In this document: positions 28,686 to 55,380 of the stretch, in pieces | How the letters are laid out: every line of letters starts with the position of its first letter | Numbering within the stretch: the first letter of the stretch is position 1 | Assembly: GCA_023258975.1 (NCBI GenBank) | Contig: JAHFRD010000019.1 | Coordinates: 1 to 56,514, forward strand | Reading direction: 5' to 3' | Length of the DNA: 56,514 nt | Source of the DNA: Hydrogenophilales bacterium | GTDB lineage: Bacteria; Pseudomonadota; Gammaproteobacteria; Burkholderiales; Thiobacillaceae | Notes under the pieces: model-generated | What the model saw: only the letters and a program-made list of their open reading frames with translations | Database searches by the model: none | Told to the model about the DNA's origin: nothing | Position numbers and translations under genes: made by a program

Positions 28686-28717
28686 CCCGAACATCACAAG
28701 TCATTACCGAGATTGAA

Positions 28718-30496: not shown

Positions 30497-30503
30497 GTGC
30501 CCC

Positions 30504-30764: not shown

Positions 30765-31038
30765 CCGGCTGCCCCAGGCGCGACGCATTCTCGAAGAGGA
30801 AGCGGACTATCTGGCCAGCAGAAATCCCGACGCCGCGCATGACATGCTCCAGACGATACGTTCATCGGTAAAGGTGCTGGCAGGGCAACCCGGTAGCGGG
30901 CGTCCCGGACGCGTGCCCGGCACGCGCGAACTGGTCATCCAGGGCCATTCCTATTTGATCCCGTACCGGGTGCGGGGCGACGTGCTGGAAGTACTGCGGG
31001 TATTCCACACTGTTCGCAAACCACCCGAGAAATGGTGA
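30754..31038 (+). CDS. ParE/RelE-superfamily toxin
   Basis: A 94-residue protein with the ParE pattern: ARRILEEEADYLASRNPDAA, then GQPGSGRPGRVPGTRELVIQGHSYLIPYRV and a final VLRVFHTVRKPPEKW. ParE toxins poison gyrase, while RelE relatives cut mRNA; this one looks ParE-like. It overlaps the antitoxin by 11 bases and stops 4 bases before atpB. Frame and motifs are intact, so the pair may be active. Confidence 0.85.
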   Translation: MRIDRLPQARRILEEEADYLASRNPDAAHDMLQTIRSSVKVLAGQPGSGRPGRVPGTRELVIQGHSYLIPYRVRGDVLEVLRVFHTVRKPPEKW

Positions 31039-31042
31039 AGTC

Positions 31043-32425: not shown

Positions 32426-32457
32426 TGAATCGTAGGCTGCGGCCCATGAGTTGAATC

Positions 32458-33078
32458 ATGCAAAAACGCCTTTCCGTCCCTCCCACAAAAAGTGCCCTGT
32501 TGCAGGTCGGCCGCCAAGCCCGTTTTCTCGAACAGGGCCGGCAGATGCTGGAGAAGAAGCGCGATCTGCTGACTCGGCTGGTCTACGAGCGTCTGGCCCA
32601 GTATCGGGAACTGCGCGCTCAGACCGTGATTGAACTGGCCGATGCCTACCGCTGGCTGGGCATCGTGCAGATGCGTATGGGCGGACAGATGCTGCGCCAA
32701 TCCTCGGTCGGGCTGAAGCTCGCCGTGGCGCTGAAGGTGGTGTCCCGCTCCAGCGTGGGCGTGGAATATCCCAGCGTGTCCGCCGAACCGCTGCCACTGC
32801 AACCGGTGGGCCTGATGTGGACCGATGTCAGCTTCGACGAGGCACGTCTGCGCCTGCGCGGCCTGACCATCACCCTGGCGCGCCTGGGCGAGGCGGAGAA
32901 CGCGCTCTGGCGCCTGCTTGCCGCCAGCCGCAAGACGCAGAAGCGGGTCAACGCCTTGAAATACAACATCATTCCCCGCTACCAGGCGACCGTGCATCAC
33001 ATCCGCGCCGCCCTGGAAGAAGACGAGCGCAATACGCTGTTCCAGATCAAGGTGCTGCGGGCAAGGGCCGGCGTATAG
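32458..33078 (+). CDS. atpD: V-type ATPase central-shaft subunit D
   Basis: A 206-residue two-helix coiled-coil rotor shaft. The N-terminal helix has LSVPPTKSALLQVGRQARFLEQGRQMLEKKRDLL in part, and the C-terminal helix has KTQKRVNALKYNIIPRY, the hallmark of subunit D. It closes the operon. The 104 bases behind it contain only a short GCCGA/TCGGC hairpin and the next ribosome-binding site. Confidence 0.93.
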   Translation: MQKRLSVPPTKSALLQVGRQARFLEQGRQMLEKKRDLLTRLVYERLAQYRELRAQTVIELADAYRWLGIVQMRMGGQMLRQSSVGLKLAVALKVVSRSSVGVEYPSVSAEPLPLQPVGLMWTDVSFDEARLRLRGLTITLARLGEAENALWRLLAASRKTQKRVNALKYNIIPRYQATVHHIRAALEEDERNTLFQIKVLRARAGV

Positions 33079-40022: not shown

Positions 40023-42239
40023 TCACGCGCTGTCGATGCACCGGGTCGAGGTGTATCCAATCGGGCAGCAACAAAACCGATATTGATTCCGCCCGGCTTC
40101 TTTCGCCGCATACATGGCCATGTCCGCTTTCTTCATCAACTCTCTGGCGTCTTCCGTTCCATCGACGGGAAGCATGGCGATACCGATGCTGGTGGTGATG
40201 TGCAATCGTTGATCCGCCACCACGATGGGCTGGGCCAGGGAATCGAGGATCTTTCCGGCGACCAGTTCGGCGTCCCGAGGGTGGTGGATTTCCGTGAGGA
40301 TGACGATGAATTCGTCTCCTCCCTGGCGTGACACCGTGTCCACGGTACGCACACACGCGCACAGGCGGGCGGCCACCACTTTCAGCAGTTCGTCGCCGAT
40401 GTCATGCCCCAACTGGTCGTTGATCGACTTGAAGTGATCCAGATCCAGAAACAGGACGGCCAGGGAACGCCGGAAACGCTTCGCCTGGGTCAGTGCCTGA
40501 TTGAAGCGGTCGATCAACAAGCGGCGGTTGGGAAGGTCGGTGAGCGTGTCGTAATAGGCAAGGCGGTGTATCTGCTCCTGGTCACGTTTGCGATCGGAAA
40601 TATCCTCGATTTGAGCGATGAAGTTCAGCGGCGTGCCCAGGTTATCCCGCAGCAGCGAGACGGTGAGCTGGGTCCAGACCGTATGGCCATCGGCATGCCG
40701 ATAGCGCGTTTCCATCCGGCAGGAATCGACCTCTTCCACCAATACCCGCCGCAGGTTGGCGGACGCGGACTCCAGGTCTTCGGGAAGGGTGAAATCCTGG
40801 AAGGACATCTTTTCAAGCACGTCCTTTTCATGGCCGAGAATGCGGCAAAGCGCGTGATTCGCCAGGAGGATCCGCCCCTCCAGCGACGTAATGGACATGC
40901 CGATGGGGGCATGTTCCAGGGTGTCGCGGAAGCGCTTCTCGCTTTCACGCAAGGCGATTTCGGCCTGCCTGCGTTCGCTGATGTCGCGCGTGACGCCCAA
41001 CAGGGAAATGACGTCGCCCTGGGAGTCGATCAGTGGCACGGCTTTGGTTTCCAACCAGCGATGCACGCCTTTGAGGCTGCATATCTCGAATTCCAGGTGG
41101 CCGGGCCTGCCCTCGAACACCTGTTTTATCAACGTCTTGAAGCGGTGCCGGTATTCAGGCATCACGATGTCGGCCACCGTTTTGCCGATGACCTGTTCCG
41201 GGGAATCCGCGTCAAGCATGTCCAGCCCGGCGCGATTCATTTGTAGCAAGGTGCCGTCGTCGGCCAGCATCTTCACGCACTCCGGCTCGTTCTCGATGAT
41301 CGTGCGCAGCCGCAGCTCGCTTTCGATGAGTTGCCGCTCCACCCGGCTGCGTTCCAGGGCCGATTCGGCCCAGCGCGACAGGAGTTGCACAAACTCCCTG
41401 TCGCCCTCGTCGAACCGCCGGCGATAAGGTTGCGGAGAGCTGAAATTGACCGTGCCGTATATCGCGCCATCCACCCGGAGCGGGGCGCCGATATAGGCTT
41501 CCAATTGGAAGGTCTGGTAGCAGGGATGTCCCATGTGCCGGGATTTCCCCATGTCCTCGATCGCCAGAACGTCGTCTTTTTCGATCGTCATGCTGCAATA
41601 GGTCAAACCGAACGGAAACGTCTGTCCATCCCCCAAGGTATTCGGGGGCGAGACCTGGGACACGATGTGGTACGTGTCCCCCTCGATGTGGCTGACGATG
41701 CCGAACTCCAACCCCAGATGCGCTGCGCCAAGCGCGAGCGCCTGCTTGAATTGTTCTGCCAGCGGGAGATGCGACAACGCCGCGATCTCGCTCAACCGGC
41801 GCAAGTTGGCGCGTTGGCGGAGTTCGATCTCCTCCATCCGTTTCCGCGCAGTGATGTCGCGGCCGATGATGACCAGGCCACGCCGCTCACCGTTGGCATG
41901 GAACAGGGGAACCTTGGTGACTTCAAAGGCATGCGTCTCCCCGGTGTCCGGATCGGAGATGTATTCCAGCGTGTCGTAGCGGGCGCGCTGCGCCCAGGCC
42001 GCCTCGTCATCGCGATGGCAGGTATCGAAGGCATCGGCCAGGGCGGGGTACATCCGCCCCAATTCCCGATCGGTCCTGCCCTCCCAGGGCTGGCCCGCGA
42101 GATGAAAAAGCCGCAGGCCAGCCGCGTTCACGACGCGCCACCGTCCCGCGCCATCCTTGAAAAAGATGGCATCGGGCAGCGCCTCGATCAGCGTTCCGAG
42201 AAGTTCGGCCGGCTCGTCTGTGGTCGGGAAGGAAGGCAT
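40023..42239 (-). CDS. PAS-GAF-PAS-PAS-GGDEF diguanylate cyclase
   Basis: A 738-residue cytoplasmic protein. PAS 1 (about 12-135), GAF (about 150-300), PAS 2 (about 305-430) and PAS 3 (about 435-555) precede a GGDEF domain with intact RQGGDEF near residue 640 and DLDHFKSINDQLGHDIGDELL. It should make c-di-GMP. No inhibitory RxxD five residues before the motif is obvious. The last 15 residues (CCCPIGYTSTRCIDSA) hold four Cys beyond the domain end and may be read-through sequence. It stands alone, convergent with ycaO. Confidence 0.9.
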   Translation of the reverse strand: MPSFPTTDEPAELLGTLIEALPDAIFFKDGAGRWRVVNAAGLRLFHLAGQPWEGRTDRELGRMYPALADAFDTCHRDDEAAWAQRARYDTLEYISDPDTGETHAFEVTKVPLFHANGERRGLVIIGRDITARKRMEEIELRQRANLRRLSEIAALSHLPLAEQFKQALALGAAHLGLEFGIVSHIEGDTYHIVSQVSPPNTLGDGQTFPFGLTYCSMTIEKDDVLAIEDMGKSRHMGHPCYQTFQLEAYIGAPLRVDGAIYGTVNFSSPQPYRRRFDEGDREFVQLLSRWAESALERSRVERQLIESELRLRTIIENEPECVKMLADDGTLLQMNRAGLDMLDADSPEQVIGKTVADIVMPEYRHRFKTLIKQVFEGRPGHLEFEICSLKGVHRWLETKAVPLIDSQGDVISLLGVTRDISERRQAEIALRESEKRFRDTLEHAPIGMSITSLEGRILLANHALCRILGHEKDVLEKMSFQDFTLPEDLESASANLRRVLVEEVDSCRMETRYRHADGHTVWTQLTVSLLRDNLGTPLNFIAQIEDISDRKRDQEQIHRLAYYDTLTDLPNRRLLIDRFNQALTQAKRFRRSLAVLFLDLDHFKSINDQLGHDIGDELLKVVAARLCACVRTVDTVSRQGGDEFIVILTEIHHPRDAELVAGKILDSLAQPIVVADQRLHITTSIGIAMLPVDGTEDARELMKKADMAMYAAKEAGRNQYRFCCCPIGYTSTRCIDSA

Positions 42240-42350: not shown

Positions 42351-42860
42351 CTATACACCGCCGCCTCGATACACCGTGGCGTAATAGATCTTTTCCAGTT
42401 CCAGCTTGTGCTTGGTCTCTTCGCCGGCCAGGTATTGGAACAGGTCACGAATCGGGCCGTCTGGCGTGGTCTGGGCCAGCTCGCCGTAGTGCAGCATCGC
42501 GGCGTGCTCGCGCCCCATTGCGTAACGCAACACCTCCTGGTCGTCCGGCTGCTCACCCAGATTCGGCAAATGCAGGCAGTCGGAAAACCGGCTGTCGCTT
42601 GCCGGGCGCTCGATTTCAGACTGGATCTGCTCGGCAATGTCGCCGCGCCGGGCCAGGGCGCCGAACAGGTCGGAGTGGGCCTGCTCTTCCGCCGCGAGAT
42701 CCTCGACCAGGTAGCGGATGCGCTTGCTCACCTTGGGAATCAGCGCGCTGTAGAAGTCGCGCGCGCCGGCTTCGAAAGAGGCCGCCACTTCCAGGATTTC
42801 ACGCACGGTGGCCTTGCCGCGCAGGCGTTCGAGTCCGTGCGTGGTGTCTGTTTGTGTCAT
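42351..42860 (-). CDS. Ferritin-like diiron protein at the end of the MBX-like operon
   Basis: A 169-residue rubrerythrin-type four-helix bundle without a rubredoxin domain. Diiron ligands are suggested by FEAGARDFY (Glu near 30), AAEEQAHSDLF, and EETKHKLELE near the end. Such proteins store iron or remove peroxide; a rubredoxin partner is not encoded here. Its ATG overlaps the stop of the FeS-flavoprotein gene (ATGA), so it is co-translated with the respiratory complex and could protect its FeS clusters or accept electrons from it. Confidence 0.82.
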   Translation of the reverse strand: MTQTDTTHGLERLRGKATVREILEVAASFEAGARDFYSALIPKVSKRIRYLVEDLAAEEQAHSDLFGALARRGDIAEQIQSEIERPASDSRFSDCLHLPNLGEQPDDQEVLRYAMGREHAAMLHYGELAQTTPDGPIRDLFQYLAGEETKHKLELEKIYYATVYRGGGV

Positions 42861-44689
42861 TTTCTTTTCTCCATGACGGCCATCGCCGCGTGCATGCCGG
42901 CGGCGGCGCGGTGGCCGTCGGCCACGGCGGTCACCACATCCGGGCCGCGCACCATGTCGCCCGCCGCCCACAGCCAGGGTTCGCTGGTGCGACCCGTCGC
43001 GTCGATTTTCAGGCGGCCGCGATTCCATTCCAGAGACTCGGTCAGCACCTCTCCAAGTAGCGAGGTGTCCGCAAACTGGCCGATGGCTTCGATCACCGTG
43101 TCGCAGGCGTGGATGGTTTCGCCCGCCGGGTCGTACTTGGGCGCGAAACGGTGATCCTCGTCGAAGATGGAGAGCACTTTCCATGTCTTGAGACCGATCA
43201 ACTTGCCGTTGGCGTTGATCTCGCAGCCCTGTGGGCCGCAGTTGTCGTGGATGATGACGCCTTCCTCCAGCGCTTCCTTGATCTCGTCCGGGTCGGCCAT
43301 GAAGTGCTGTTGATCTTCCAGCGCGGTCACCACCACATCGACCTGGCCGAACTGCTGTTTTTGCAGTCGCGCCAGCGAGCGGGCGATATCCATAGCGACA
43401 TTGCCGCCACCGATCACCACCGCGCAGTGGGGCAGATCGAACGGTTCTCCGGCGGTGATCTTGTTCAGCAGATCCACGGCCCGGAAGACCTTTTCGTGCT
43501 CCGAATGAGGAATGCGGGTCTGACGCCCCTGTTGCAGGCCGAGGGCGATCAGGACGGCGTCGTGCGTGTTGCGTAGTTCTTCCAGGCTGATGTCCCGGCC
43601 GATCTTCACATTGCAGCGGATATCGACGCCGACGGAGCGGATCACGTCGATGTCGCGGTCGATGCGGTCGTAAGGCAGACGGTATTCCGGGATGCCCCAT
43701 CGGGTCATGCCGCCGGGCTGGTCGAGCGCCTCGAACACCGTGACGGCATGGCCCAGCCTGGCCAGGTCGAAGGCGGCGGTCAGCCCGGCCGGGCCGGCGC
43801 CGACGATGGCGACGCCACGGCCGCTGGCGGTCGCCGCCTTGCCGGCTGCCGCAATCTGTTTGACACGCTCGTGCGGCACCGCATCCACGGCGTAGCGCTT
43901 GAGCCAGCGTATGGCGATCGGTTCGCCACGTTTGCCGATGGAGCAGGCCGTCTCGCAGCGGCGGGTGCAGACGCGCCCACAAACGTGGGCAAAGGGGTTG
44001 GTTTCATAGATCAGGCGCACCGCTTCCTCGATCTGGCCCCGCCAGATGGCACGGATGTATTCGGGCGCGTGCATGTGGGTGGGGCAGGCGTCGTGGCACA
44101 TGCCGCACTGCACGCAGCGCGAGGCTTCCAGCATGGCCTGCTGGTCGTCGTAGCCGCGCACGATCTCGGCGAAGTTGCCGATGCGCGCTTCGGCGTCCAG
44201 CTCGCGCATCTCCTGGCGGTCGAGATCGACCAGGTCGGCATCAGCCGTCTTGGCCCAGCCCAGGCCGAAAGGCTTGCCATGCATGCCGCTCGAATCCGGC
44301 AGCACGAAGTAGCTGGATATTTGTTCCTCGGTACAGGTGTGCACGTATTCGCGCGACAGGGCGAGTGATCCGGTGGGGCAGATGTCTACGCACAGACCGC
44401 ACCAGCAACAGCGGCCGTAGTCGATGGCCGGGCGTTCATCACGCACGCCCCCGGCCGGGTCATTCAGCAGGCCGGGGATGCGCGCCATGCTGATGGCGGC
44501 GTTGTCGCAGACCTTCTGGCAAGTGCCGCAGCCGACGCATTTTTCCCAGTCGTTGACGTGGAAGCCGCGATAGTTGGCCGAGGCCGCGCGCGGTTCGAGG
44601 GGTTCGGTGACCGGCGGGCGGCCGAAGAAAGACCAGCTTTTCAGCGGATTGAGCAGGCTGCCGCGATCTTTGTGGTCGATGTCGCTCAT
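42857..44689 (-). CDS. Ferredoxin-like subunit fused to GltD/NfnB-type flavoprotein
   Basis: A 610-residue fusion. Residues 1-110 resemble NuoI/MbxN with two [4Fe-4S] sites, Cys51/54/57/61 and Cys94/97/100/104. A GltD N-terminal domain follows with CVQCGMCHDAC and CGRVCTRRCETAC. Then come the FAD site GAGPAGLTAA (about 297) and the NAD(P) site IGGGNVAMD (about 432) of the glutamate synthase small subunit family. In archaeal MBX the N subunit carries only the clusters. Here it would link pyridine nucleotide, via FAD and up to four clusters, to the J/L module. Arg in the second dinucleotide motif region favours NADPH (inference). Overlaps both neighbours. Confidence 0.88.
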   Translation of the reverse strand: MSDIDHKDRGSLLNPLKSWSFFGRPPVTEPLEPRAASANYRGFHVNDWEKCVGCGTCQKVCDNAAISMARIPGLLNDPAGGVRDERPAIDYGRCCWCGLCVDICPTGSLALSREYVHTCTEEQISSYFVLPDSSGMHGKPFGLGWAKTADADLVDLDRQEMRELDAEARIGNFAEIVRGYDDQQAMLEASRCVQCGMCHDACPTHMHAPEYIRAIWRGQIEEAVRLIYETNPFAHVCGRVCTRRCETACSIGKRGEPIAIRWLKRYAVDAVPHERVKQIAAAGKAATASGRGVAIVGAGPAGLTAAFDLARLGHAVTVFEALDQPGGMTRWGIPEYRLPYDRIDRDIDVIRSVGVDIRCNVKIGRDISLEELRNTHDAVLIALGLQQGRQTRIPHSEHEKVFRAVDLLNKITAGEPFDLPHCAVVIGGGNVAMDIARSLARLQKQQFGQVDVVVTALEDQQHFMADPDEIKEALEEGVIIHDNCGPQGCEINANGKLIGLKTWKVLSIFDEDHRFAPKYDPAGETIHACDTVIEAIGQFADTSLLGEVLTESLEWNRGRLKIDATGRTSEPWLWAAGDMVRGPDVVTAVADGHRAAAGMHAAMAVMEKRK

Positions 44690-45831
44690 CAGCGGTCAAC
44701 CTCCGGGGGACAGGCGTCGAGGGAGAACATGATCTGCGCCACATCCTCGATGCGCGCGCCGGTGGCCAGATGTTCGAGCACCTGCACCGCGTGCATGGCC
44801 GATGGGCCGCGCACGTGGACGCGATAGGGTTTGTCGCCGCCGTTCGAGACGACGTAATAGGCCAGCTCGCCTTTCGACGACTCGACGCGGGTATAGACAT
44901 CGCCGGCCGGCAGGTTCCAGGCCAGCGGATTGGGGATGGGCGCGCGGATCGGGCCACCGATGCCGGTCAAGCGCGCGACCACCTGGCGCAGGATGCGCAG
45001 GCTTTCCTTCAACTCGCCGCGCCGCACCAGCGCGCGCGCCCAGGCATCGCCGGCCGTTTCGACGGGAATGTCGAATTCGATCTGGTCGTATACGAGGTAG
45101 GGATCGTCGCGGCGCACGTCTAGGGCCAGGCCGGTGGCGCGCAGGTTGGGGCCGGTGACCGCCCATTCCAGCGCCTGTTCCCGGGTCAAGGCGCCGATGC
45201 CGGTGGCGCGGTGGACGAAGACCTTGTTGGTGAACAGCAGGTTGTCGTAATCGGGCAGGCGCGATTCCAGGTATTCGAGGGTCTTGCTCACGCGTTCGAG
45301 GTAGCCTGGCGGCAGGTCGCGGCGCACGCCGCCGGGTATGTTGTAAATGTGATAGACGCGCCCGCCGGTAAGCTCCTCGAACAGGTCGAGAATCAGGTCG
45401 CGATCGCTGATGCCCCAGAACATCGGCGTGTACATGCCGGTGGTGGCCGCGTGGCCGCCGAAGAAGAACAGGTGGGCGGCGATGCGAGACAGTTCCAGTT
45501 GCAGGACGCGTATCCATTGCGCGCGCGGCGGCACCTCGATACCACCGAGTTCCTCGATGGCGAGCGAGTAGCAGACTTCCATCGGCACCGGGTCGGGCAC
45601 GCAGATGCGCGGCACCAGTGCGATGTTCTGAATCCACAGGCGGCCTTCCATGAGTTTTTCGAAACCACGATGCAGATAGCCGCCATCGGCGCGCGCGGAA
45701 GTGACCTCGTCGCCATGCACGCGCACCTTGAGCGCATAGTTGCCCTCGATGCCCGGGTGGTTGGGGCCGAAGAACAGCTCGAACTCGTTGCTCGGCGGTT
45801 GGCTGGCGGATGGGTAGTTTTCCGGTCTCAT
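44689..45831 (-). CDS. NuoD/MbxL-like catalytic subunit with altered NiFe ligands
   Basis: A 380-residue member of the complex I 49-kDa/group 4 hydrogenase large-subunit family. It starts with FGPNHPGIEGNYALKVRVHGD and has DGGYLHRGFEKLMEG. The L1 motif, RxCGxC in hydrogenases, is RICVPD here: Cys77 is kept and Asp80 replaces the second Cys. The L2 motif near the end, DPCxxC in hydrogenases, is DACPPE: Cys374 kept, Glu377 instead of Cys. NiFe binding is therefore improbable. As I recall, archaeal MBX/MBS large subunits also keep only part of the Cys ligands. One base is shared with the next gene. Confidence 0.88.
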   Translation of the reverse strand: MRPENYPSASQPPSNEFELFFGPNHPGIEGNYALKVRVHGDEVTSARADGGYLHRGFEKLMEGRLWIQNIALVPRICVPDPVPMEVCYSLAIEELGGIEVPPRAQWIRVLQLELSRIAAHLFFFGGHAATTGMYTPMFWGISDRDLILDLFEELTGGRVYHIYNIPGGVRRDLPPGYLERVSKTLEYLESRLPDYDNLLFTNKVFVHRATGIGALTREQALEWAVTGPNLRATGLALDVRRDDPYLVYDQIEFDIPVETAGDAWARALVRRGELKESLRILRQVVARLTGIGGPIRAPIPNPLAWNLPAGDVYTRVESSKGELAYYVVSNGGDKPYRVHVRGPSAMHAVQVLEHLATGARIEDVAQIMFSLDACPPEVDR

Positions 45832-46409
45832 GGCTTGCCGCCGTTATTCCTGATGTCCTCGGGGCGGGTGGTGATGCCGCCGCCCTTGGCTTCGATGTCG
45901 GCCAGCCAGTCGGGGCGGTATTCCTGCCACTCGAACTGGTTCATGACCCAGGCCTCGCCATCGAATTCCTTGCGCATCGGCGGTGGCCCATCCCACTCGG
46001 TGAGGATGAATTTGCCCATGTCCGGGCTGCCCTCGAAATAGAGGCCGAACATCTCGTGGATGTCGCGCTCAAAAAACGCCGCCGGGTGGTACAGGTCATA
46101 CACCGACAGATAGACGCCTGGATCGCGTGGAATGCGGATGTGCGCCATGACCAGCACGTTCAGCTCATAAGACCAGAGGTGGTAGACCAGCTCGAATTCA
46201 CCCTGCCCCGGCCAGTCGACGCAACTGATCGCCGACAGGTGCGCATAGCCCGCGCGTCCCTTGAGTAGCGCCAGCAACGCCGGTAGGGTTTCCGCCGACA
46301 GATCGACACGCAGGCGGCGCGGGGCCGCCCATTGGGTGCGCAAGCCGGCGATTTCCTGCAACAGGAATTCGAGTTTGCCGGCCTTGTTGCCGGATTTGGC
46401 CAGTTTCAT
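45828..46409 (-). CDS. nuoC: NuoC/MbxK-like 30-kDa subunit
   Basis: A 193-residue subunit of the peripheral arm. HIRIPRDPGVYLSVYDLYHPAAFFERDIHEMFGLYFEGSPD in part is the complex I 30-kDa signature, with ERDIHEMFG exact. It is not fused to NuoD, as in the group 4 and MBX systems. It overlaps nuoB and nuoD by four bases each. Confidence 0.92.
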   Translation of the reverse strand: MKLAKSGNKAGKLEFLLQEIAGLRTQWAAPRRLRVDLSAETLPALLALLKGRAGYAHLSAISCVDWPGQGEFELVYHLWSYELNVLVMAHIRIPRDPGVYLSVYDLYHPAAFFERDIHEMFGLYFEGSPDMGKFILTEWDGPPPMRKEFDGEAWVMNQFEWQEYRPDWLADIEAKGGGITTRPEDIRNNGGKP

Positions 46410-47143
46410 GACTTGCCGCCTTTGCTCACGTCGCCGAGTCCCAGTCGCATCTCGAAGGGCAACAGCGGCGTCTGGTGGCGTTCCAGCAGGGCCGTGTGCT
46501 CACCCAGGGTTTCCGGGCCGAACTGGCCGTAGTGGCGGGCTTCGCCGATGACATCGGTGGGTGTCTGCCAGTGCTCGCCGAACAGGCGCTGCTGATTGCC
46601 GAGATAGTGGTCGTAGCGTTGGTAGTAGTCGCGCCAGTTGTCGGAACGGCCGGCGCGGATGTTTTCCATCAGCTCGCGCAGGCCGCTGATTACGGCTTCG
46701 GGGCGCGGCATGCAGCCGGCGATATACATGTCCACCGGCATGTAGTCGCTCAACTTCTTGGCGGTGGCATAGCTTTGCCAGTACATGCCGCCATTGACGG
46801 TGCAGGAGCAGATGCCGATCACATATTTGGGCGAGTTCATCTGTTCGTAGGTGAGGATGATGCGCTTCAGGGTCTTGGTCGAGACGTAGCCGGTGACTAG
46901 CAGGATGTCCGCCTGGCGCGGCGTCACCATCGGCTGGATGCCGAGGCGCTCCATGTCGAAGCGTGAGGTCATCGCCGGCGGCAGTTCGATGGCGCCACAG
47001 CCGGTGCAGTAGTGCAGCATGAACAGGGAGCGCGAACGGCAGAAGGCCAGCAGTTCGTCGAAGACGTTGGCCAGCAGGTTGCCGCCGCCCGAGGGCTCTT
47101 CCGCCGGGGGCGCCACGACGGGGATGGATTGCAAGGTGCTCAT
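46406..47143 (-). CDS. nuoB: NuoB/MbxJ-like subunit (proximal FeS cluster)
   Basis: A 245-residue FeS subunit. Cluster N2 ligands are in HYCTGCGAIE, GICSCTVNGG and GCMPRPE. The first motif is CxxC, as in hydrogenases and MBX, rather than the tandem CC of respiratory complex I, which places this complex on the group 4/MBX side. The C-terminal 70 residues extend beyond the usual NuoB length. The following gene is nuoC, overlapping by four bases; the preceding nuoH ends about 30 bases away. Confidence 0.93.
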   Translation of the reverse strand: MSTLQSIPVVAPPAEEPSGGGNLLANVFDELLAFCRSRSLFMLHYCTGCGAIELPPAMTSRFDMERLGIQPMVTPRQADILLVTGYVSTKTLKRIILTYEQMNSPKYVIGICSCTVNGGMYWQSYATAKKLSDYMPVDMYIAGCMPRPEAVISGLRELMENIRAGRSDNWRDYYQRYDHYLGNQQRLFGEHWQTPTDVIGEARHYGQFGPETLGEHTALLERHQTPLLPFEMRLGLGDVSKGGKS

Positions 47144-47173
47144 GTCATCGTGCTCCTGTGTTTGTCCCGCCGT

Positions 47174-48073
47174 TCAGCGCATCACCAGCCACACGCCGAT
47201 CAGCCCCAGGAGCATCGGCCAGCGCCAGACGACGGCCAGCACGTCCTCGGTGCGGTAGCGGGGAAAGACGAAAGCCATGCTCATGGGAATGGCGACGACT
47301 GCGAACAGTTTGGCGATGAAGAACAGCCAGTTCTCGCCGCCTCCCAGGAAAAGCGAGACATAGATGGCGCTGGCGGTGAACAACTGGAAGCACTGCATGA
47401 CGAACAGGCCGCCGAGATGCTTGCCGCCCATTTCCACCATCGGCCCGGTGGCGATCTCGGCCGGTGCGACGTAGATCTCGAACGGCTGCTTGCCGAGCAT
47501 GGCGTACAGCGTGAACAGCCCGGCGATGGCCAATAGCGGCATTTGCGTGACTCCCCATGACGCGATGCCGCCGGCCTGCTGCGCGGCGATGACCTCCACC
47601 AGGTTGTTGCTGCCATAGAGCCAGGAGGCGCCGAAGATGATGACGACGAAGGGCACGTCGTAGGCCAGCATGGCGGTCAGCGCGCGGGCAATGCCGATCG
47701 AGCCGTTCGGGTTGGCGCACTGGCCGACGCCCAACGCCAGGCCCAGCGAGGGAATCATGGTCACATAAGCGAGGGTGAGCATCCCCGCCTTGTCGGCGAT
47801 GCCGTTCATGCCGGGCACCGGCAGCATGGTTTCGGCGGCGATGTAGCCGCCCACCGCCATGACGATGCCGATGTCGTGCAGGAGGCCGTGCGAGCTCTGC
47901 GTTTCCTTGGCGTAGAGCTTGACGATGTCATACAACGGTTGCAGCAGCGGCGGGCCGACGCGGCGCTGAATCTTCGCCGCGATCTTGCGCATCATCAGCA
48001 CCATGAACAGGCCGACGGTGAAGGCCAACAGCGGCATCACGGTGAGTTCGAGCAGGAGTTCCATCATCTTCAT
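47174..48073 (-). CDS. nuoH: NuoH/MbxM-like membrane anchor subunit
   Basis: A 299-residue membrane protein with eight helices that connects the peripheral arm to the antiporter-like subunits. RRVGPPLLQPLYDIVKLYAKE near 34-54, IGIARALTAMLAYDVPF and PFEIYVAPAEIATGPMVEMGGKHLG are the NuoH/HyfC signature parts with the acidic residues of the E-channel. The ATG at 48073 overlaps the upstream stop, giving MKMMELL; the internal ATGs would only trim two or three residues. Confidence 0.92.
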   Translation of the reverse strand: MKMMELLLELTVMPLLAFTVGLFMVLMMRKIAAKIQRRVGPPLLQPLYDIVKLYAKETQSSHGLLHDIGIVMAVGGYIAAETMLPVPGMNGIADKAGMLTLAYVTMIPSLGLALGVGQCANPNGSIGIARALTAMLAYDVPFVVIIFGASWLYGSNNLVEVIAAQQAGGIASWGVTQMPLLAIAGLFTLYAMLGKQPFEIYVAPAEIATGPMVEMGGKHLGGLFVMQCFQLFTASAIYVSLFLGGGENWLFFIAKLFAVVAIPMSMAFVFPRYRTEDVLAVVWRWPMLLGLIGVWLVMR

Positions 48074-49929
48074 TTCCAGATCATCCAGCTCAGGCCCAGC
48101 ACGGCCGCGACCAGCAATGTCAGCGCCGGCACTGTCTGGCGATACCAGACCTGCATGAGCGACGCAGCCAGATCGGTCGCGGCGGCCACGGCGGATTCCA
48201 GCCGAGTGAAGCTGCTTCGGTAGAACGGGCCGATGCGGTGCATCAGCCCGGCGTAGAAATGGTCGCTGTAGTGGTAGCGCACGTCGGCGGAGAGAAAGTG
48301 GCCGCCGGCATAGTTGTCGAGCTGGTGCACGCGCTTGGAGCGGCCACCGGCGCCATAGAACAGCAAGGCGCCGATGCCGAAGCCGGCGAACAGCACACCG
48401 ACGATCCACAGCATGTCGAGATTGCCGCGTGGCGATTCGATGCCGCCCAGGGTATACGCCAGCACCGGCAGGCCGAGCGCCGCTTGCGCTTCGGCCACCC
48501 AGGACAGCGCCAGCCCGGGCGCGGCGCCGGTGACGAAGGCGAGGATCACCAGCGCCAGCATGGGCAGGGTCATGCTCCAGGGCGCCTCGCGTATCTGTTC
48601 GTGCTCCGCGCGCAGCTGGCCGAGGAAGGTGTTGTGGATCAGTTTGTAGACGCTGAGGATGGTGCCCAGTGTGCCGATCACGGTCATCAGGAACAGGAGC
48701 GGGCGGCCATCCAGCATGAGCGAGCGATACACCAGCCATTTCGAGACGAAGCCGTTCATCGGCGGCAGGCCGGCCAGGCCGATGATGCCCAGCAACATCA
48801 CCAGGAAGGTCAGCGGCATGCGCGTCACCAAGCCGCCCAGCGAATTGAGGTCGGCCGTGCCGGTGCGGTGCATCACCGCGAACACCGCGAGCACCAGCGC
48901 CGCCTGATAGGTGGCGTAATTGAACACGTGCAGCAGGCCGCCGGCGCTGCCGGTGGCGTCGCCGATGACGATGCCGAGCAGCATGTAGCCGCCCTGGCCG
49001 ATGCCGTGCCAGGCCAGCAGATAGCGGGCATCGTTCTGCTTCAGCGCGGTGAAGGTGGGCAGCACGATGGTCAGCGCCGCGACCCACGCCAGCAGGTCGC
49101 GGGCGGTGAACAGCCCTTCGATGAAGGCCAGGTCGGCCACGCGTGTCAGCGTCATCAGCTTCACCAGCAGAAGCGCCAGCGCGAACAGGCCCATGCGCGC
49201 CGAGATCGCGCCCAGGAAAGCGGTGCCCGCGCCCGCCGCCTCGGCATAGGCCGGCGCCTGCCAGAGATGGAAGGGCAGGAGGCCCATCTTGATCGAGAAA
49301 CCCATGCCGAACAGCGCCAGCAGCAGGGCCAATTTCGTGTTGTCCAGGGTCGGCATGATGCCGGTCAGCGCCGCCAGGTCGAGCGTGCCGGTCCAGGCCA
49401 GGGTCAACGCCAGACCGCCCAGCACCGCCATCGCGCCGCTCATGGCATAGGGCACGTAGCGCAGGGCGGCGCGCAAGGCTTTCTCGCCGCCCTGCGCCAT
49501 CAGCAGGAAACCGGCCCAACTGGTGAGTTCCCAGCCGATGAAGAAGGCAATCAGATCCTGGCTGCTCAACAGCAAGAGCATGGCCAGCACGTTGCCGGCC
49601 AGGGCGCCGTGCAGCCAGCGCGGGCTGTGGCCCCCGGCGGCATGGCGTTCCCCCCACTCGCCCCCCATATACACGGTCGAGGCAAGCGCCACGCCGAGGG
49701 TGATGAGCGCGAAGAAGCGGCCGAAGGCGTCCAGTCGCCAGCCCACCGATCGGCCGAAAATCTCCAGGTTCATGCCGGCGGCCAGGGGCAGGTCACACCC
49801 TGCCAGCAGGATGATCTGGCCGGTGAGCACCATGCCCGCCAGCCAGGCGTATCCGCGCCAGCGGCCGAACAGGAGGGCGGCCGGCGGCATCAGGGCAGAG
49901 AGCGCCAACAAAATATCAAGAGCGTTCAT
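48070..49929 (-). CDS. Second antiporter-like subunit (NuoL/MbxH'-type)
   Basis: A 619-residue proton_antipo_M protein with about 14-16 helices. The conserved Glu is in SQDLIAFFIGWELTSWAGFLL and a Lys in GFSIKMGLLPFHLW. In the second symmetry half a typical Lys is replaced by Arg (ISARMGLFAL), and LKQNDARYLLAWHGIGQ stands at the broken helix. The C-terminal extension of about 100 residues ends in a last membrane helix. It follows MnhD directly. Archaeal MBX likewise carries a second H-type subunit (H') at this place. Confidence 0.88.
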   Translation of the reverse strand: MNALDILLALSALMPPAALLFGRWRGYAWLAGMVLTGQIILLAGCDLPLAAGMNLEIFGRSVGWRLDAFGRFFALITLGVALASTVYMGGEWGERHAAGGHSPRWLHGALAGNVLAMLLLLSSQDLIAFFIGWELTSWAGFLLMAQGGEKALRAALRYVPYAMSGAMAVLGGLALTLAWTGTLDLAALTGIMPTLDNTKLALLLALFGMGFSIKMGLLPFHLWQAPAYAEAAGAGTAFLGAISARMGLFALALLLVKLMTLTRVADLAFIEGLFTARDLLAWVAALTIVLPTFTALKQNDARYLLAWHGIGQGGYMLLGIVIGDATGSAGGLLHVFNYATYQAALVLAVFAVMHRTGTADLNSLGGLVTRMPLTFLVMLLGIIGLAGLPPMNGFVSKWLVYRSLMLDGRPLLFLMTVIGTLGTILSVYKLIHNTFLGQLRAEHEQIREAPWSMTLPMLALVILAFVTGAAPGLALSWVAEAQAALGLPVLAYTLGGIESPRGNLDMLWIVGVLFAGFGIGALLFYGAGGRSKRVHQLDNYAGGHFLSADVRYHYSDHFYAGLMHRIGPFYRSSFTRLESAVAAATDLAASLMQVWYRQTVPALTLLVAAVLGLSWMIWK

Positions 49930-51419
49930 TTCGTGGCTTCCGAGGTGGCCGTGGCGGGCAGAACCCGCGCCACATAGGCGGCAGAGTCGTTCATCTGCAG
50001 CGCCATGCGCGCCAGCGGCGCGGTCAGCCAGGGCGCGGCCAGGGCGACGGCGAGCAGGAGCGCGGCAAAGGCGCCGCTTCCCGCCAGGGTGGAGGCCGGC
50101 AGCGTCATGTCCAACGCCATGTTTTGCGGCTTCTCCGAATGCGCGGCGTCACGGCCATGCAGCATGCCGATGACGCGGAACAGATAGACGGCTTCGACCA
50201 CCGTGGTCACCAGCACGACCAGGCCGGCCAGCAGGTAGAGGTTATCCGGCTGTGCCGCCAGGCCGGACAGCAACAGGTATTTGGCCCAGAAACCGGGCAG
50301 GGGCGGCACGCCGATCAGGGACAGGGCAAACAGCGCGAAGAGGGCCGCGCCGAAAGGCGAACGCCGCGCCGCGCCGGCGAGTCTGGCGAGACCGCCGCCC
50401 CAGCGCTCGGCCAGCAAGAACAGCGCCGGCTTGACCAGCAGATGGTGCAGGGCGATGGCCAGGCCGGCCGCCAACCCGAGTGAGCCGGGAATGGAGAAGG
50501 CGATGAAGGCGGCGCCGAGTTGGCCGATGGACGACCAGGCCAGCATGCGTTTGATGTCGCGCGCCCGGAAAGCGGCGAACTCGCCCGTGAGCATGCCCAG
50601 CATGCCGAGGATCAGCAGCGCCCCGCGCGCCTCGGGTAGCGGGAAGACCAGCACCAACAGGCGCGCCAGGACAAGCAGGGCGAGTTTGGAAACCAGACCC
50701 GCGAGCAGCGCCGACACGCGCGCCTCCGCCGTGGCATAGATCTCGGGCGCCCAGGTGTTGACCAGGAACAGTTCCGCCTTGACGCCCAGGCCCAGCAATA
50801 TCAGGAAGAAAGCCGCCAGCCCGAACGGGTCATGCAGGGTTTGCGGCGCCAGATCGGCGAGATGCGCCAGGTTGAGCGTGCCGGCGCGGAAGTAGATGAG
50901 GGTGATGCCGAGCAGCGCCAGCAGGGAGCCGAGGCTGCCGAGGATCAGGTAGCGGAAGGTGGCGACCCGTGCCGCCGCCGTGCCGCCACCCGCCGCGAGG
51001 CCATAGCCGGCCACGGCCGCAAGTTCGTAGAAGACATAGACGTTGAACAGATCGCCCGACACCGCCAGGCCGCCGCAGGCGGCGGCGAGAACCAGGGTCA
51101 GCGACTGCTTGCGGTCGAGGTTTTCACTCGTGTCGCCACGCCACGGCCACAACAGCAGGGTGACCAGCGCCACCGCCAGCACGAACAGGGCGGCGACACT
51201 GTCGACATAAAACACGACCCCGAGGGGCGGACGGAAATCACCCAGCGCCAACGAAACGGGTTCGATGAGCGTGATCCGCCACAAATACACCCCCAGCGCG
51301 GCCACAAGCAGCAGTGCCAGCGGCCCGAGCAGCCGTCGTATCGCGCCCGGCAGCAACGGTGGGAGAAAGGCCGCGAGCAGGGGGAGGGCGACCACCAAAG
51401 CGAGGAGGGAGTGGCTCAT
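49926..51419 (-). CDS. mnhD: MnhD/MbxH-type antiporter subunit
   Basis: A 497-residue Mrp subunit D-family protein with 13-14 helices. The functional Glu is in LFNVYVFYELAAVAGY and Lys residues in GLGVKAELFLVNTWAPEIY, LAGLVSKLALLVLARL and IALHHLLVKPALFL. DIKRMLAWSSIGQLG is the family hallmark. It should form one H+ or Na+ path. The ATG at 51419 overlaps the MnhC stop; longer upstream frames shadow that gene. Confidence 0.92.
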   Translation of the reverse strand: MSHSLLALVVALPLLAAFLPPLLPGAIRRLLGPLALLLVAALGVYLWRITLIEPVSLALGDFRPPLGVVFYVDSVAALFVLAVALVTLLLWPWRGDTSENLDRKQSLTLVLAAACGGLAVSGDLFNVYVFYELAAVAGYGLAAGGGTAAARVATFRYLILGSLGSLLALLGITLIYFRAGTLNLAHLADLAPQTLHDPFGLAAFFLILLGLGVKAELFLVNTWAPEIYATAEARVSALLAGLVSKLALLVLARLLVLVFPLPEARGALLILGMLGMLTGEFAAFRARDIKRMLAWSSIGQLGAAFIAFSIPGSLGLAAGLAIALHHLLVKPALFLLAERWGGGLARLAGAARRSPFGAALFALFALSLIGVPPLPGFWAKYLLLSGLAAQPDNLYLLAGLVVLVTTVVEAVYLFRVIGMLHGRDAAHSEKPQNMALDMTLPASTLAGSGAFAALLLAVALAAPWLTAPLARMALQMNDSAAYVARVLPATATSEATK

Positions 51420-51916
51420 GCCGGCGTTCCCGGAGTGTCGGCGCGGCGCGCGCCCGCAGAAATTGGTGGCAAGGGGCGGCCACCGGCCGGCGCGTGCTGG
51501 CAGCGGGCCGGCTGGGTGCCCGCCGCGCTGTCGATGTCGGTTTCCATACGCGCGCGCAGGGCATTCATGTCCAGTGTGCCGTAGGCGCCATAAGCGCGGA
51601 TGGCCAGGCTGAGGGCGAGCGCCTGCACGCCGACGCCGATGACGATGGCGGTCAGCACCAGGGCCTGGGGAATCGGGTCGACCATGCTTGGCGTCAGGGA
51701 AGCCGCATCCCGGCCGGATTCGATGATCGGCGCGATGGCTCCCCACGCGCTCTGGCGGAAGCCCACGAGCACCAGCAACAGGTTGGCGCCGGCCTCGGCC
51801 AGCGCCAGCGCCAGCACGACGCGGAACAGATTGCGCGACAGCACCAGTCCGCCGATGCCTAGGGCGACAAGGCCGAGGGCGCCGATCAACAGGGTGAGAA
51901 GGGCGAATTCACTCAT
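51416..51916 (-). CDS. mnhC: MnhC/MbxG-type subunit (NuoK-like)
   Basis: A 166-residue protein with three helices (about 3-27, 31-55 and 82-108). The second helix keeps the Glu in ALALAEAGANLLLV, and DPIPQALVLTAIVIGVGVQALALSL is the Mrp C/NuoK signature. A hydrophilic C-terminal tail of about 55 residues, Pro/Gly/Arg-rich, is longer than usual. Four-base overlaps on both sides. Confidence 0.9.
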   Translation of the reverse strand: MSEFALLTLLIGALGLVALGIGGLVLSRNLFRVVLALALAEAGANLLLVLVGFRQSAWGAIAPIIESGRDAASLTPSMVDPIPQALVLTAIVIGVGVQALALSLAIRAYGAYGTLDMNALRARMETDIDSAAGTQPARCQHAPAGGRPLPPISAGARRADTPGTPA

Positions 51917-52611
51917 GCGTCCGCCTCATCTTCGCTCAGGCGCAGCAGCAGGCTGGCAAGCTCCGCCCCGACCTTGAGGCCGACGGCGAGGTAGAGGACG
52001 GGCAGGGTGCCGGCCGAGAGTAGCGCGCCCAACTGTCCGGGCCCCAACAGGGGCGCAAGAAAGGCGCGGTCGAAGGCCAGCGCCCCCAGGCCGGTGAGGA
52101 TGAAGACGCCGCCCGCGAGACCCTCGACCCGGGCCATCGCCTTGTGCGAGAGCGTCTCCGTGGGCCGCGCCAGCACCGGCAGCACGAAGGCGGCCGCGAG
52201 CACCACCCCGCCCTGAAAACCGCCGCCGGGGGTCAGGTGACCATGCACGATGATGTAGAAACCGACCAGCAGCAACAGGGGAAAGAGGAAATCGACGCCC
52301 GCCCGCAGGATGAAGCCACCCGGTTCGCGCGGCGCGCCGGCGCCAAGAGTCCGATGCGCGCTTCCCAGCACCAGGCCGACGGCCGTGGCGGCAGCGAACA
52401 GGATGGATAGCTCGCCCAGGGTGTCGATGCCGCGATAAGCCAGTACCACGGCGGTGACGATATTGGCCGCGCCCACCGTGGTCGCGGCTTCATCGAGCAA
52501 TGCCTGGCCGGCCAGCATCGGCGGCGCGCCGAGCGGCTGGCTGGTAAACAGCACGAACAGCAGGAAGGCGAAACCGGCGGCGAACAGCAGGGTGCCGTAG
52601 CGGGTCAGCAT
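51913..52611 (-). CDS. mnhB: MnhB-type subunit, fused MbhE+MbhF form
   Basis: A 232-residue membrane protein. The first 85 residues (one helix at 6-22, a loop with ETTVGAANIVTAVVLAYRGIDTLGE-like sequence, a helix) match MbhE. The rest is the MrpB domain with FPLLLLVGFYIIVHGHLTPGGGFQGGVVLA. The two are separate genes in P. furiosus MBH, so this is the fused form also found in MrpA C-termini. The start at 52611 (MLTRYGTLLFA) gives this arrangement; a longer upstream frame overlaps the MbhD gene. Confidence 0.85.
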   Translation of the reverse strand: MLTRYGTLLFAAGFAFLLFVLFTSQPLGAPPMLAGQALLDEAATTVGAANIVTAVVLAYRGIDTLGELSILFAAATAVGLVLGSAHRTLGAGAPREPGGFILRAGVDFLFPLLLLVGFYIIVHGHLTPGGGFQGGVVLAAAFVLPVLARPTETLSHKAMARVEGLAGGVFILTGLGALAFDRAFLAPLLGPGQLGALLSAGTLPVLYLAVGLKVGAELASLLLRLSEDEADA

Positions 52612-52895
52612 GCCGGGCCTCCCGCGTGCTCGCTTTCTTCCTGAGCCTCGATGCGCCACAAGCCGAGACGCCTGGCCGCCAGGGCCAGCAACAGGCCACC
52701 CAGGCCAGCGCCGATGGCCGCTTCGGTCAGCGCCACATCGGGTGCCCGCAACATCACGAAGAACACCGATACCCCCAGGGATACCAGCGCAGTGGCCACG
52801 GCGGCGCCCAGCAGATTTTTCAGGAACAGCGCGGCGCACGCCGCGACCAGCACCAGCACCACCATGATGACGATTACAAGGTCAGCCCAGGCCAT
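52605..52895 (-). CDS. MbhD/MbxD-type subunit (DUF4040)
   Basis: A 96-residue protein with three helices. DVALTEAAIGAGLGGLLLALA, with its Glu, is the signature of the MbhD/MrpA C-terminal domain; LKNLLGAAVATALVSLGVSVFF precedes it. ATG at 52895 (MAWADLVIVIM) follows the MnhG stop by one base. The C-terminal end overlaps the mnhB start by seven bases. Confidence 0.85.
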   Translation of the reverse strand: MAWADLVIVIMVVLVLVAACAALFLKNLLGAAVATALVSLGVSVFFVMLRAPDVALTEAAIGAGLGGLLLALAARRLGLWRIEAQEESEHAGGPAC

Positions 52896-52896
52896 G

Positions 52897-53199
52897 TCAG
52901 TGTTCGCCTTTGTCAGGTGCTTGCCACGGCCGCACACCGGCCCGATACAGGGCGCGGGCGATCACCGAGGAACCGACCGGGTTGGTCAGGAGCAGGAGGG
53001 CGCCGATGGCGGCGAGTTTGGGCCACCAGCCAGGTTGCAACAGGGCGACACCCGACAAGGTGGCCAGCACGCCCAGCGTCACCGCCTTGGTGCCTGCCTG
53101 GATGCGGTTGTAGACATCCGGCATGCGCCAGAGGCCGAGCGCGCCGAGCAGGCAGAACAGGGCACCGACCAGAACCAGGAGACTGCCGATGATGCTCAT
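52897..53199 (-). CDS. mnhG: MnhG/MbxC-type subunit
   Basis: A 100-residue Mrp G subunit with three helices: a start IIGSLLVLVGALFCLLGALG, then LWRMPDVYNRIQAGTKAVTLGV, the family hallmark, and a third helix with LLLLTNPVGSSVIARA. Its function in the complex is structural and in ion translocation. Four-base overlap with mnhF. Confidence 0.92.
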   Translation of the reverse strand: MSIIGSLLVLVGALFCLLGALGLWRMPDVYNRIQAGTKAVTLGVLATLSGVALLQPGWWPKLAAIGALLLLTNPVGSSVIARALYRAGVRPWQAPDKGEH

Positions 53200-53468
53200 G
53201 CCCGCTTCCCCGTTTCGATGGCGCGCGCCAGCGCGACGACGCCGACAAAAGCCAGCACGCCATAAACCAGCGCCACATCCAGATAGAGCGCGTTCTCCAG
53301 AAAGACCGCCAGGGCCACCAGCAGGGCGGTGGCGATCACCGTCAGGATATCGGCGGCCACCAGCCGGTCGGGCGTCGCGGGTCCGCGCGCGAAACGCAGC
53401 AAACCCAGCAGGATCGCGGCGGCGAACACGAGCAGCGCGGCCATCTGGATGAACAGGGCCGGCGTCAT
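53196..53468 (-). CDS. mnhF: MnhF/MbxB-type subunit
   Basis: A 90-residue Mrp F subunit with three helices. RFARGPATPDRLVAADILT is diagnostic, with the Asp of the PDR motif. Four-base overlaps with mnhE and mnhG show tight coupling. Confidence 0.92.
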   Translation of the reverse strand: MTPALFIQMAALLVFAAAILLGLLRFARGPATPDRLVAADILTVIATALLVALAVFLENALYLDVALVYGVLAFVGVVALARAIETGKRA

Positions 53469-54124
53469 CGCGCGATCAACCGCAAGTAACGCTCGAAATC
53501 GGCGGCGATGGCGGCGGTGGCGGCATCCATGTCTACGCCCGGCGGGCAGTCTATCCAGTGGATGGTCAGCAGGTCATCCTCGACATCCACGGTCAGCGTG
53601 CCCGGTGTCAGGGTGATGCTGTTGGCAAGGAGCAGGCGACCCAGCGCGGAGGTCAGGCCGGTGCGTACCCGCACCACGCCCGGCCGTATCGGCAGGTCGG
53701 GCGACAACACGCGCCGCGCCACGTCGATATTCGAACGTACCAGCGCGATGCCGAACACACCGAGATAGGCCAACAGGGCGCCGGGCAAAATGAATGACCA
53801 GCGCAGCCCCGCGAAAATGCCGCTCCTGGCGAAGGCCAGCGCCCCCACCACAACGGTCACCAGAGCGCCGGTGATGAGTTCCTGGGCATCCAGCGTACCG
53901 GTCAGCAACAGCCAGAGCACGGCCGCGAGCAAGAGCACGGTCAGGCCGGTCACCGTCGTCGGCGGCTGAGTGAAGCCGCTTTCTTCGCCAGCCGGCCTGG
54001 TGTCGCCGTCTTGCGGAGAAATGCCCGCCAGGCGCTCGGCAAGCGTGATGAGGTGTTGTCGGAAGCGGTCACCCACCTTGCCCAACCAGGGCAGGCAACT
54101 CCGTGGTGCGCTGTTCAAGTGCAT
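53465..54124 (-). CDS. mnhE: MnhE/MbxA-type subunit, first gene of the MBX-like operon
   Basis: The C-terminal 165 residues are an Mrp E subunit: two to three helices, then VLSPDLPIRPGVVRVRTGLTSALGRLLLANSITLTPGTLTVDVEDDLLTIHWID in part, which is the family signature. The N-terminus is uncertain. ATG at 54124 gives 219 residues with a hydrophilic 55-residue leader and no clear Shine-Dalgarno sequence. Open reading extends further upstream to 54268 but crosses the sigma-54-type promoter, so I prefer 54124 or a still later start. Confidence 0.85.
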   Translation of the reverse strand: MHLNSAPRSCLPWLGKVGDRFRQHLITLAERLAGISPQDGDTRPAGEESGFTQPPTTVTGLTVLLLAAVLWLLLTGTLDAQELITGALVTVVVGALAFARSGIFAGLRWSFILPGALLAYLGVFGIALVRSNIDVARRVLSPDLPIRPGVVRVRTGLTSALGRLLLANSITLTPGTLTVDVEDDLLTIHWIDCPPGVDMDAATAAIAADFERYLRLIAR

Positions 54125-54395: not shown

Positions 54396-54431
54396 GGGAA
54401 AATCAACCGCTGCCAAGCGGAGTGGCAGCGG
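54396..54431 (-). terminator. Rho-independent terminator of modA
   Basis: On the minus strand the 9-bp stem CCGCTGCCA/TGGCAGCGG with a 7-base loop is followed by TTGATTTTCCC. It lies 20 bases behind the modA stop. Confidence 0.7.
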
Positions 54432-54450
54432 CGATTCCGTATTTTTCGGG

Positions 54451-55380
<930 letters not shown>

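Follow-up and report, generated by a model that had tools for sequence, protein, structure and literature searches.

The stretch analysed here (the window) comprises 56,514 nucleotides of contig JAHFRD010000019.1 from a Hydrogenophilales bacterium (GenBank assembly GCA_023258975.1), and the subject of this report is a fourteen-gene operon on its minus strand at 42351-54124. By sequence comparison, the operon was confirmed to encode a complex of the MBS/MBX type, and we read it, with a probability of roughly 0.55, as a putative membrane-bound, ion-translocating, reversible NAD(H):sulfane-sulfur oxidoreductase of that family, the sulfane-sulfur substrate being deduced from the homology to MBS and from the distribution of the operon. 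As judged from its sequence relatives, the operon is widespread in sulfur proteobacteria. This recurrence across sulfur-linked proteobacteria, including symbionts, is what is new here; the family of its flavoprotein fusion is also present in Thermotoga maritima. MBS is treated as an intermediate between hydrogenases and complex I and has been described from heat-loving anaerobes in the literature seen, and an NAD-linked MBS in sulfur oxidizers, animal symbionts included, would add an energy-coupling site to the current view of sulfur oxidation and provide milder test organisms. Papers are cited by their PMC numbers.

Gene order and family membership

Read from 54124 down to 42351, the operon has the order A-B-C-D-EF-G-H-H'-M-J-K-L, followed by a NuoI(MbsN)-GltD fusion and a ferritin-like gene. 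An earlier note on this DNA had described fourteen overlapping minus-strand genes; their coordinates were exact and every gene was identified with Pfam, and overlap holds for 11 of the 13 junctions but not for two, which have 1- and 30-base gaps. The genes are MbsA (MnhE-like; 219 residues; 53465..54124, with longer in-frame starts possible up to 54268; MNHE, 2e-37), MbsB (MnhF-like; 90 residues; 53196..53468; MrpF_PhaF, 8e-16), MbsC (MnhG-like; 100 residues; 52897..53199; PhaG_MnhG_YufB, 1.5e-24), MbsD (MbhD; 96 residues; 52605..52895; MbhD, 9e-18), MbsE+F (an MbhE domain fused to an MnhB-like domain; 232 residues; 51913..52611; MnhB, 3e-24, and MbhE, 4e-6), MbsG (MnhC, NuoK-like; 166 residues; 51416..51916; Oxidored_q2, 4e-20), the two antiporter-type ion channels MbsH (497 residues; 49926..51419) and MbsH' (619 residues; 48070..49929), the NuoH-like membrane anchor MbsM (299 residues; 47174..48073), the NuoB-like proximal-cluster subunit MbsJ (245 residues; 46406..47143), the NuoC-like MbsK (193 residues; 45828..46409), the NuoD-like MbsL (380 residues; 44689..45831), the fusion of MbsN (NuoI) with GltD/NfnL (610 residues; 42857..44689), and a rubrerythrin/ferritin-like diiron protein (169 residues; 42351..42860; Rubrerythrin, 2e-11). 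The Pfam assignments also included Proton_antipo_M (twice), NADHdh, Oxidored_q6, Complex1_30kDa, and Complex1_49kDa, with Fer4, Fer4_20, and Pyr_redox_2 in the flavoprotein. We infer that the fourteen genes are co-transcribed. As the earlier note had claimed, the order read from the Pfam calls agrees with the archaeal MBS/MBX order, that of the Pyrococcus MBX operon.

When the subunits were searched against the PDB, the MBS of Pyrococcus furiosus (6u8y) was the top match for all six of J, K, L, M, H, and H'. MbsL gave 395 bits with 6u8y_L (best complex I chain, 274; MbhL of the hydrogenase MBH, 120), MbsJ gave 216 bits with 6u8y_J (best complex I-type chain, 115; MBH, 100), and the scores with the corresponding chains and the next PDB match were 168 and 68 bits for MbsM (6u8y_M), 79 and 46 for MbsK (6u8y_K), 208 and 134 for MbsH (6u8y_H), and 170 and 134 for MbsH' (6u8y_X). 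In a maximum likelihood tree of NuoD (39 rows), a branch with 100/100 support parted 24 MBS-type rows from 15 complex I rows. The MBS side consists of 13 rows of the window's own type, hereafter type A (window included), 10 of a divergent sister type found in relatives, hereafter type B, and P. furiosus MbsL (PfMbsL); the tree as a whole has no MBH, Fpo, or T. maritima rows. Note that the Pyrococcus row is long-branched and may group falsely (a warning of the program), and that the type A grouping has 72/87 support only. A position inside ordinary complex I had been named by the earlier note as what would speak against its reading; NuoD, the subunit for which a tree was built, lies outside. 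The MBX/MBS-like identity is supported by the subunit order, the MbsN domain that opens the flavoprotein, the 6u8y matches, and the NuoD tree.

The operon is homologous to respiratory complex I in its B, C, D, H, and I subunits and its antiporter-type subunits. It differs in having an Mrp-like module and in lacking the quinone histidine and tyrosine (His38 and Tyr87 in Tt Nqo4 numbering), and NuoE, NuoF, NuoG, NuoA, and NuoJ were not found among the fourteen genes by Pfam. Both quinone residues were absent from the 23 type A and type B rows examined and from PfMbsL, as they were from the 70 type A and 10 type B sequences of a larger set, and were present in all 15 complex I rows, which were taken from 15 carrier genomes. 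A complex I variant, which the earlier note had excluded, was rejected on the loss of these residues and the placement of NuoD. The homologous subunits would also suit a divergent quinone-reducing complex I with GltD in place of NuoEFG, which we regard as highly improbable, since both quinone residues are gone in every MBS-type row examined, the tree places the rows elsewhere, and an ordinary complex I NuoD is already present in 15 of the 15 genomes searched (on contig C24 in the window's own genome).

A [NiFe] hydrogenase-type complex (MBH/Ech/Hyf) was likewise rejected, because MbhL and FHL subunit 5 gave 120 and 111 bits against 395 for MbsL; this comparison covered the MBH and FHL chains in the PDB, with Ehr sequences outside it. 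No Ni-binding CxxC pair was found in the window's NuoD, in which the counterparts of MbsL C85 and C385 are kept; both types retain C85 throughout, and C385 is retained by type A but replaced by Tyr in type B. A Hyf-like cluster of 'Candidatus Symbiobacter' and more than 300 bacteria has been likened to Mbx and judged not to be sulfur-reducing (PMC4053972); it has six Hyf-like genes and is a different set from the 14-gene operon.

Active site, electron input, and the ferritin-like protein

In the MBS structure, the proximal cluster is held by three cysteines only (MbsJ C28, C93, and C123), Cys25 is not a cluster ligand, and the quinone histidine and tyrosine of complex I are lost, the cluster itself being catalytic (PMC7684303). 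In the window's J, C49, C114, and C144 are the equivalents of the three ligands and C46 is the counterpart of Cys25. The three ligand positions were invariant in 90 sequences (79/79 type A, 10/10 type B, and the window), and the position of C46 was Cys in 79/79 type A and Gly in 10/10 type B. The CxxC form of NuoB, on which the earlier note had drawn, is present in the window but absent from the 10 sister complexes examined. Because of the Gly in type B and the non-ligand role given to its counterpart in the Pyrococcus structure, the first cysteine of the CxxC appears to be dispensable, and this pattern together with the invariant ligands fits a three-cysteine catalytic cluster. Type B complexes, which are naturally without the spare cysteine, may serve as ready variants for probing the mechanism of a site-differentiated cluster. 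On the side of the ion channels, Glu134 and Lys214 of H', both of the antiporter type, were invariant in 57/57 type A and 10/10 type B sequences.

In the fusion protein, residues 8-127 match the MBS subunit MbsN (6u8y_N) and residues 157-603 match an Nfn chain, so that the ferredoxin-receiving subunit of MBS is here joined to a pyridine-nucleotide module of its own. Seventeen cysteines were invariant in 58 type A and 8 type B sequences, of which 16 suffice for four [4Fe-4S] clusters. The nearest NCBI family, PRK13984 (NuoI-GltD fusion), was matched with 785 bits, under its cut-off of 946. The YRR motif, which binds the 2'-phosphate of NADP(H) (PMC7596348), was missing in the 17 fusion sequences inspected (the window, nine type A, and seven type B), which have TAL or a similar xAL, and GltD of the same genome keeps it (AYRRDE). 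From this absence and the published motif rule, NAD(H) rather than NADP(H) is the predicted substrate of the fusion; of the NAD(P)H coupling through its own flavoprotein that the earlier note had envisaged, the NAD(H) half is retained and NADP(H) specificity is disfavoured.

The fusion resembles DsrL, which is also a GltD/Nfn-type FeS flavoprotein of sulfur bacteria and of which the DsrL-1 form favours NAD(H) (PMC7596348). However, DsrL partners DsrAB and is without an N-terminal NuoI domain, and the identity of the fusion with DsrL was rejected because dsrAB of this genome sits on another contig (C5) with a DsrL-like gene of its own. Compared with the window, the fusions of three type B loci from the same genus or family (L024, L025, and L026) were 82-92% identical in residues 401-550 and only 25-64% identical in residues 1-300; a further type B locus (L023) showed 54-68% identity in residues 401-550. 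Recombination thus appears to have exchanged the NAD module between the two types, giving natural chimaeras, which argues that both share one input module.

The ferritin-like protein has E30, E59xxH62, E118, and E148xxH151, which were invariant in 57 type A and 8 type B sequences with the exception of one gapped row, and these residues form the usual diiron pattern. Its structure model had a mean pLDDT (predicted local distance difference test) of 83.5, and the best and only fold match at 0.001 or better was 1vjx (E = 7e-4), a ferritin-like diiron protein of T. maritima. A protein of the ferritin-like fold class is likely from the model, and the match does not settle its function. About 98% of the activity of Pyrococcus MBS was lost on treatment with ferricyanide and regained on reduction with ferrous iron (PMC7684303). 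Speculatively, the diiron protein may shield or re-iron the oxidant-sensitive proximal cluster.

Distribution and link to sulfur metabolism

The distribution was surveyed by a scan with the J alignment of the genome_contigs collection (one genome per species, 84,980 species), from which the best 80 of at least 536 candidate loci were kept, many of them on short contigs. Among these 80, near-full-length genes were found at 79 loci for each of J and K, at 70 for L, 64 for M, 58 for the fusion, 57 for each of H' and the ferritin-like protein, and 56 for H. The whole block, or the part of it that fits on the contig, recurs at 15 loci of other genomes, and the operon is thus not a chance assembly; it occurs across proteobacteria and is not confined to one genome. 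Carriers among the best 80 loci include Parasulfuritortus, Lamprocystis, Thiohalocapsa, Thiodiazotropha, Sedimenticola, Thiolapillus, tubeworm endosymbionts, Parabeggiatoa, Thiomargarita, and a metagenome-assembled genome (MAG) of Gallionellaceae; many others are gammaproteobacterial MAGs with no genus assigned, and a small number of MAGs bear the labels Hyphomicrobiales, Lysobacterales, Alcanivoracaceae, Alphaproteobacteria, or Dichelobacter. The named genera, known as sulfur oxidizers, cover purple sulfur bacteria, relatives of Beggiatoa and Thiomargarita, and symbionts of clams and tubeworms.

In a sample of 398 Pseudomonadota genomes, J was found in five, namely the window's own and four with type B. 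It was found in 72 of 147 genomes of the order of Lamprocystis, of which, by score alone, 42 are type A-like (one of them with both types) and 30 only type B-like. The window's genus (23 genomes) has three type A and seven type B carriers and none with both (1e-40). Among the loci listed, several of the Beggiatoa/Thiomargarita type hold only J-K or J-K-L; in L098, L099, L103, L106, and others of this kind, these genes are detached from those of the membrane arm; K and L are separated by about 1.6-1.9 kb in L098 and L103, and M and J by 4.7 kb in L099.

In the phylum sample, dsrA was over the cut-off in all five J carriers vs 52 of the 398 genomes overall (3e-5 if the genomes were independent, which they are not). 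The type A hosts, 50 genomes hand-picked from the 80 best loci, had dsrA over the cut-off in 41 and at 1e-60 in 43, and RuBisCO in 43, vs 112 of 398 genomes of the phylum sample. In the window's own genome, contig C5 carries an operon read as dsrABEFHCMKL, then P- and N-like genes; its dsr genes were named from sequence and order, dsrA scoring over the cut-off and DsrL being the GltD-like match on that contig. RuBisCO large subunits are on contigs C15 and C9. Under the rules of PMC7596348, the presence of DsrEFH-like genes and the lack of YRR in DsrL indicate a dsr operon of the oxidative type, and the host is best read as an autotrophic sulfur oxidizer. Among the couplings suggested in the earlier note, sulfur chemistry is the one favoured by the distribution in dsr-bearing bacteria.

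Other dsr loci were also noted. A second dsrA of the same genome (G000:C6:67530-68783, L119) scored over the cut-off and is 78% identical to the C5 copy, and the 20 kb read around it gave no match to the genome's own dsrB or to other dsr queries; a pair of dsrA genes also occurs in several relatives within the genus. In four type B hosts (L121-L125), dsrAB is directly followed by a dsrL-like gene, one of them (G093) having two such loci.

Direction of electron flow and competing explanations

In an oxidoreductase of the proposed kind, electrons would pass between NAD(H), FAD, two [4Fe-4S] clusters of the GltD part, two of the MbsN part, the site-differentiated proximal [4Fe-4S] cluster of J, and polysulfide, persulfide, or another S-S compound in the J/L/M chamber, where the redox change would drive the passage of ions through H, H', and the Mrp-like module or be driven by it. 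In these hosts the preferred direction would be reverse, with the ion gradient pushing electrons of sulfide or persulfide onto NAD+. The anatomy, cluster ligands, and loss of quinone residues are taken from the sequence, and the direction is taken from an energy estimate only. With standard redox potentials, NADH to polysulfide yields about 12 kJ per two electrons (4 kJ at -280 mV) and ferredoxin to polysulfide 42 kJ, and two protons moved against 150 mV cost about 29 kJ by calculation. If the stoichiometry is kept, the 12 kJ set against 29 kJ argues for the reverse direction in a respiring sulfur oxidizer. For Pyrococcus MBS, about 41 kJ was matched by the authors with two pumped protons (PMC7684303). 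We tentatively suggest, at well under even odds, a widespread shortcut in which an MBS-type complex running backward passes electrons of sulfide or persulfide to NAD+, bypasses the quinone pool, and makes NADH more cheaply than reverse complex I. If so, chemosynthetic symbionts, purple sulfur bacteria, and giant sulfur bacteria would get cheaper NADH, which would help explain how sulfur autotrophs afford it. The complex may give sulfur bacteria an electron route between sulfide and NADH that costs little energy.

Several observations weigh against the proposed oxidoreductase and its reverse use. The MBS/MBX proposals seen in PMC7684303, PMC9431562, and PMC10356935 are all forward (reducing) with ferredoxin. 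When 1272 open reading frames (ORFs) from the 80 loci were clustered, no sulfur gene was found recurring beside the operon and, apart from clusters 0-3, taken as antisense ORFs from their positions, no neighbour occurred at more than ten loci; clusters 4-6 cover nine or ten loci each, nearly all of Thiodiazotropha and its kin. In the window's family, dsrA at 1e-60 was found in 10 of 12 carriers and in 23 of 25 non-carriers, so that the association within the family is uninformative, nearly the whole family having dsrA. Seven of the 50 type A hosts gave no dsrA match at 1e-60, some of which may be explained by incompleteness since all seven are MAGs, and seven of the 50 gave no RuBisCO match. 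None of the four type B carriers in the phylum sample gave a RuBisCO match at 1e-50, and NADH supply for the Calvin cycle is therefore not the general role; in the dsr stretches read, the same four have DsrABL but no DsrEFH or DsrC.

The main rival is a forward sulfur respiration, in which, under anoxia, NADH from stored carbon would serve to reduce sulfur, whether stored or external, to sulfide with little energy gained. It agrees with the homology to MBS, with carriage by Parabeggiatoa and Thiomargarita (e.g. L095-L099), with the respiration of stored sulfur by Beggiatoaceae using polyhydroxyalkanoate, acetate, or H2 (PMC4959497), and with the 4.36-fold rise of T. maritima mbxA with S0 (PMC9431562). 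If true, the complex would be a candidate enzyme for stored-sulfur respiration, including the anoxic reduction reported for Beggiatoa. We nevertheless consider it unlikely, though not greatly so, because about 12 kJ per two electrons is too little to move two ions against a normal gradient (about 29 kJ, 150 mV) and because a preference for NAD(H) suits accepting electrons more than donating them, by the argument of PMC7596348. Less probable again is a substrate other than polysulfide, such as a sulfane-sulfur protein or a low-molecular disulfide (DsrC trisulfide or a glutathione-type persulfide). The MBS authors permit organic or inorganic S-S, and they describe the opening of the chamber as one for hydrophobic substrates, which speaks against such compounds (PMC7684303). 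The rdsr-like operon of the genome includes a DsrC-like gene, but it also shows DsrM-, DsrK-, and DsrP-like genes of DsrMKJOP, the complex by which DsrC is normally served. Still more doubtful is an Rnf-like, ion-pumping ferredoxin:NAD(P) oxidoreductase with an incidental J/L pocket, which is how Mbx used to be viewed: the GltD part is Nfn-like and Mbx was earlier termed a ferredoxin:NADP oxidoreductase (PMC4596419), but the MbsN domain, which is the ferredoxin entry of MBS, is covalently tied to its own NAD module, the three MBS-like ligand cysteines and the missing quinone residues are kept in every row examined, and the carriers are largely dsr-bearing.

The proposed NAD(H)-linked complex shares with P. 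furiosus MBS the subunit set and order, the three-cysteine cluster, MbsL Cys85/Cys385, and the lack of quinone residues. It differs in that ferredoxin is the donor there and here MbsN is fused to a predicted NAD(H) flavoprotein, a diiron protein is added, the host is a probable mesophilic sulfur oxidizer, and a divergent type B version exists in relatives. Among 14 control genomes, PRK13984 was over its cut-off in T. maritima only, and the fusion type therefore exists there, its gene presumably adjoining the mbx genes. The MBX of T. maritima is a bacterial 13-subunit MBS homologue induced by S0, the host of which is, unlike the present one, an anaerobic hyperthermophilic fermenter, and a forward direction with ferredoxin was proposed for it; neither a ferritin-like gene nor sulfur-oxidizer carriers are mentioned in the passages seen of that account (PMC9431562). 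Bacterial MBS/MBX are otherwise known from Thermoanaerobacter/Caldanaerobacter and a deep-branching thermophile (PMC9431562, PMC4596419, PMC10356935). No description of an MBS/MBX operon in sulfur-oxidizing proteobacteria was found in the literature searched, subscription papers being mostly outside the search, and a term look-up in the main text of a 2025 genome-wide survey of complex I (PMC12361115) found MBX/MBS nowhere.

The operon is flanked upstream by a gene for a modA-like solute-binding protein (54451-55251) and downstream by one for a PAS-GGDEF protein (40023-42239). A ten-pair hairpin with a T-rich tail (54406-54432, minus strand), directly downstream of modA and before the operon, is a possible terminator separating the two, the indication being weak with 15 such sites in the window vs 8.2 expected. 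The G+C content in 4-kb steps is 0.61-0.68, with its peak over part of the operon, and gave no clear sign of recent foreign origin. Elsewhere on the plus strand of the window, 18217-23543 encodes the small and large subunits of a [NiFe] hydrogenase, with a short ORF and a CCG-domain (HdrD-like) FeS protein between them, a row that resembles an Isp-type uptake hydrogenase. Subunits I, A, B, and D of a V/A-type ATPase are encoded at 25237-33078 on the same strand, about 9 kb from the MBS-like operon.

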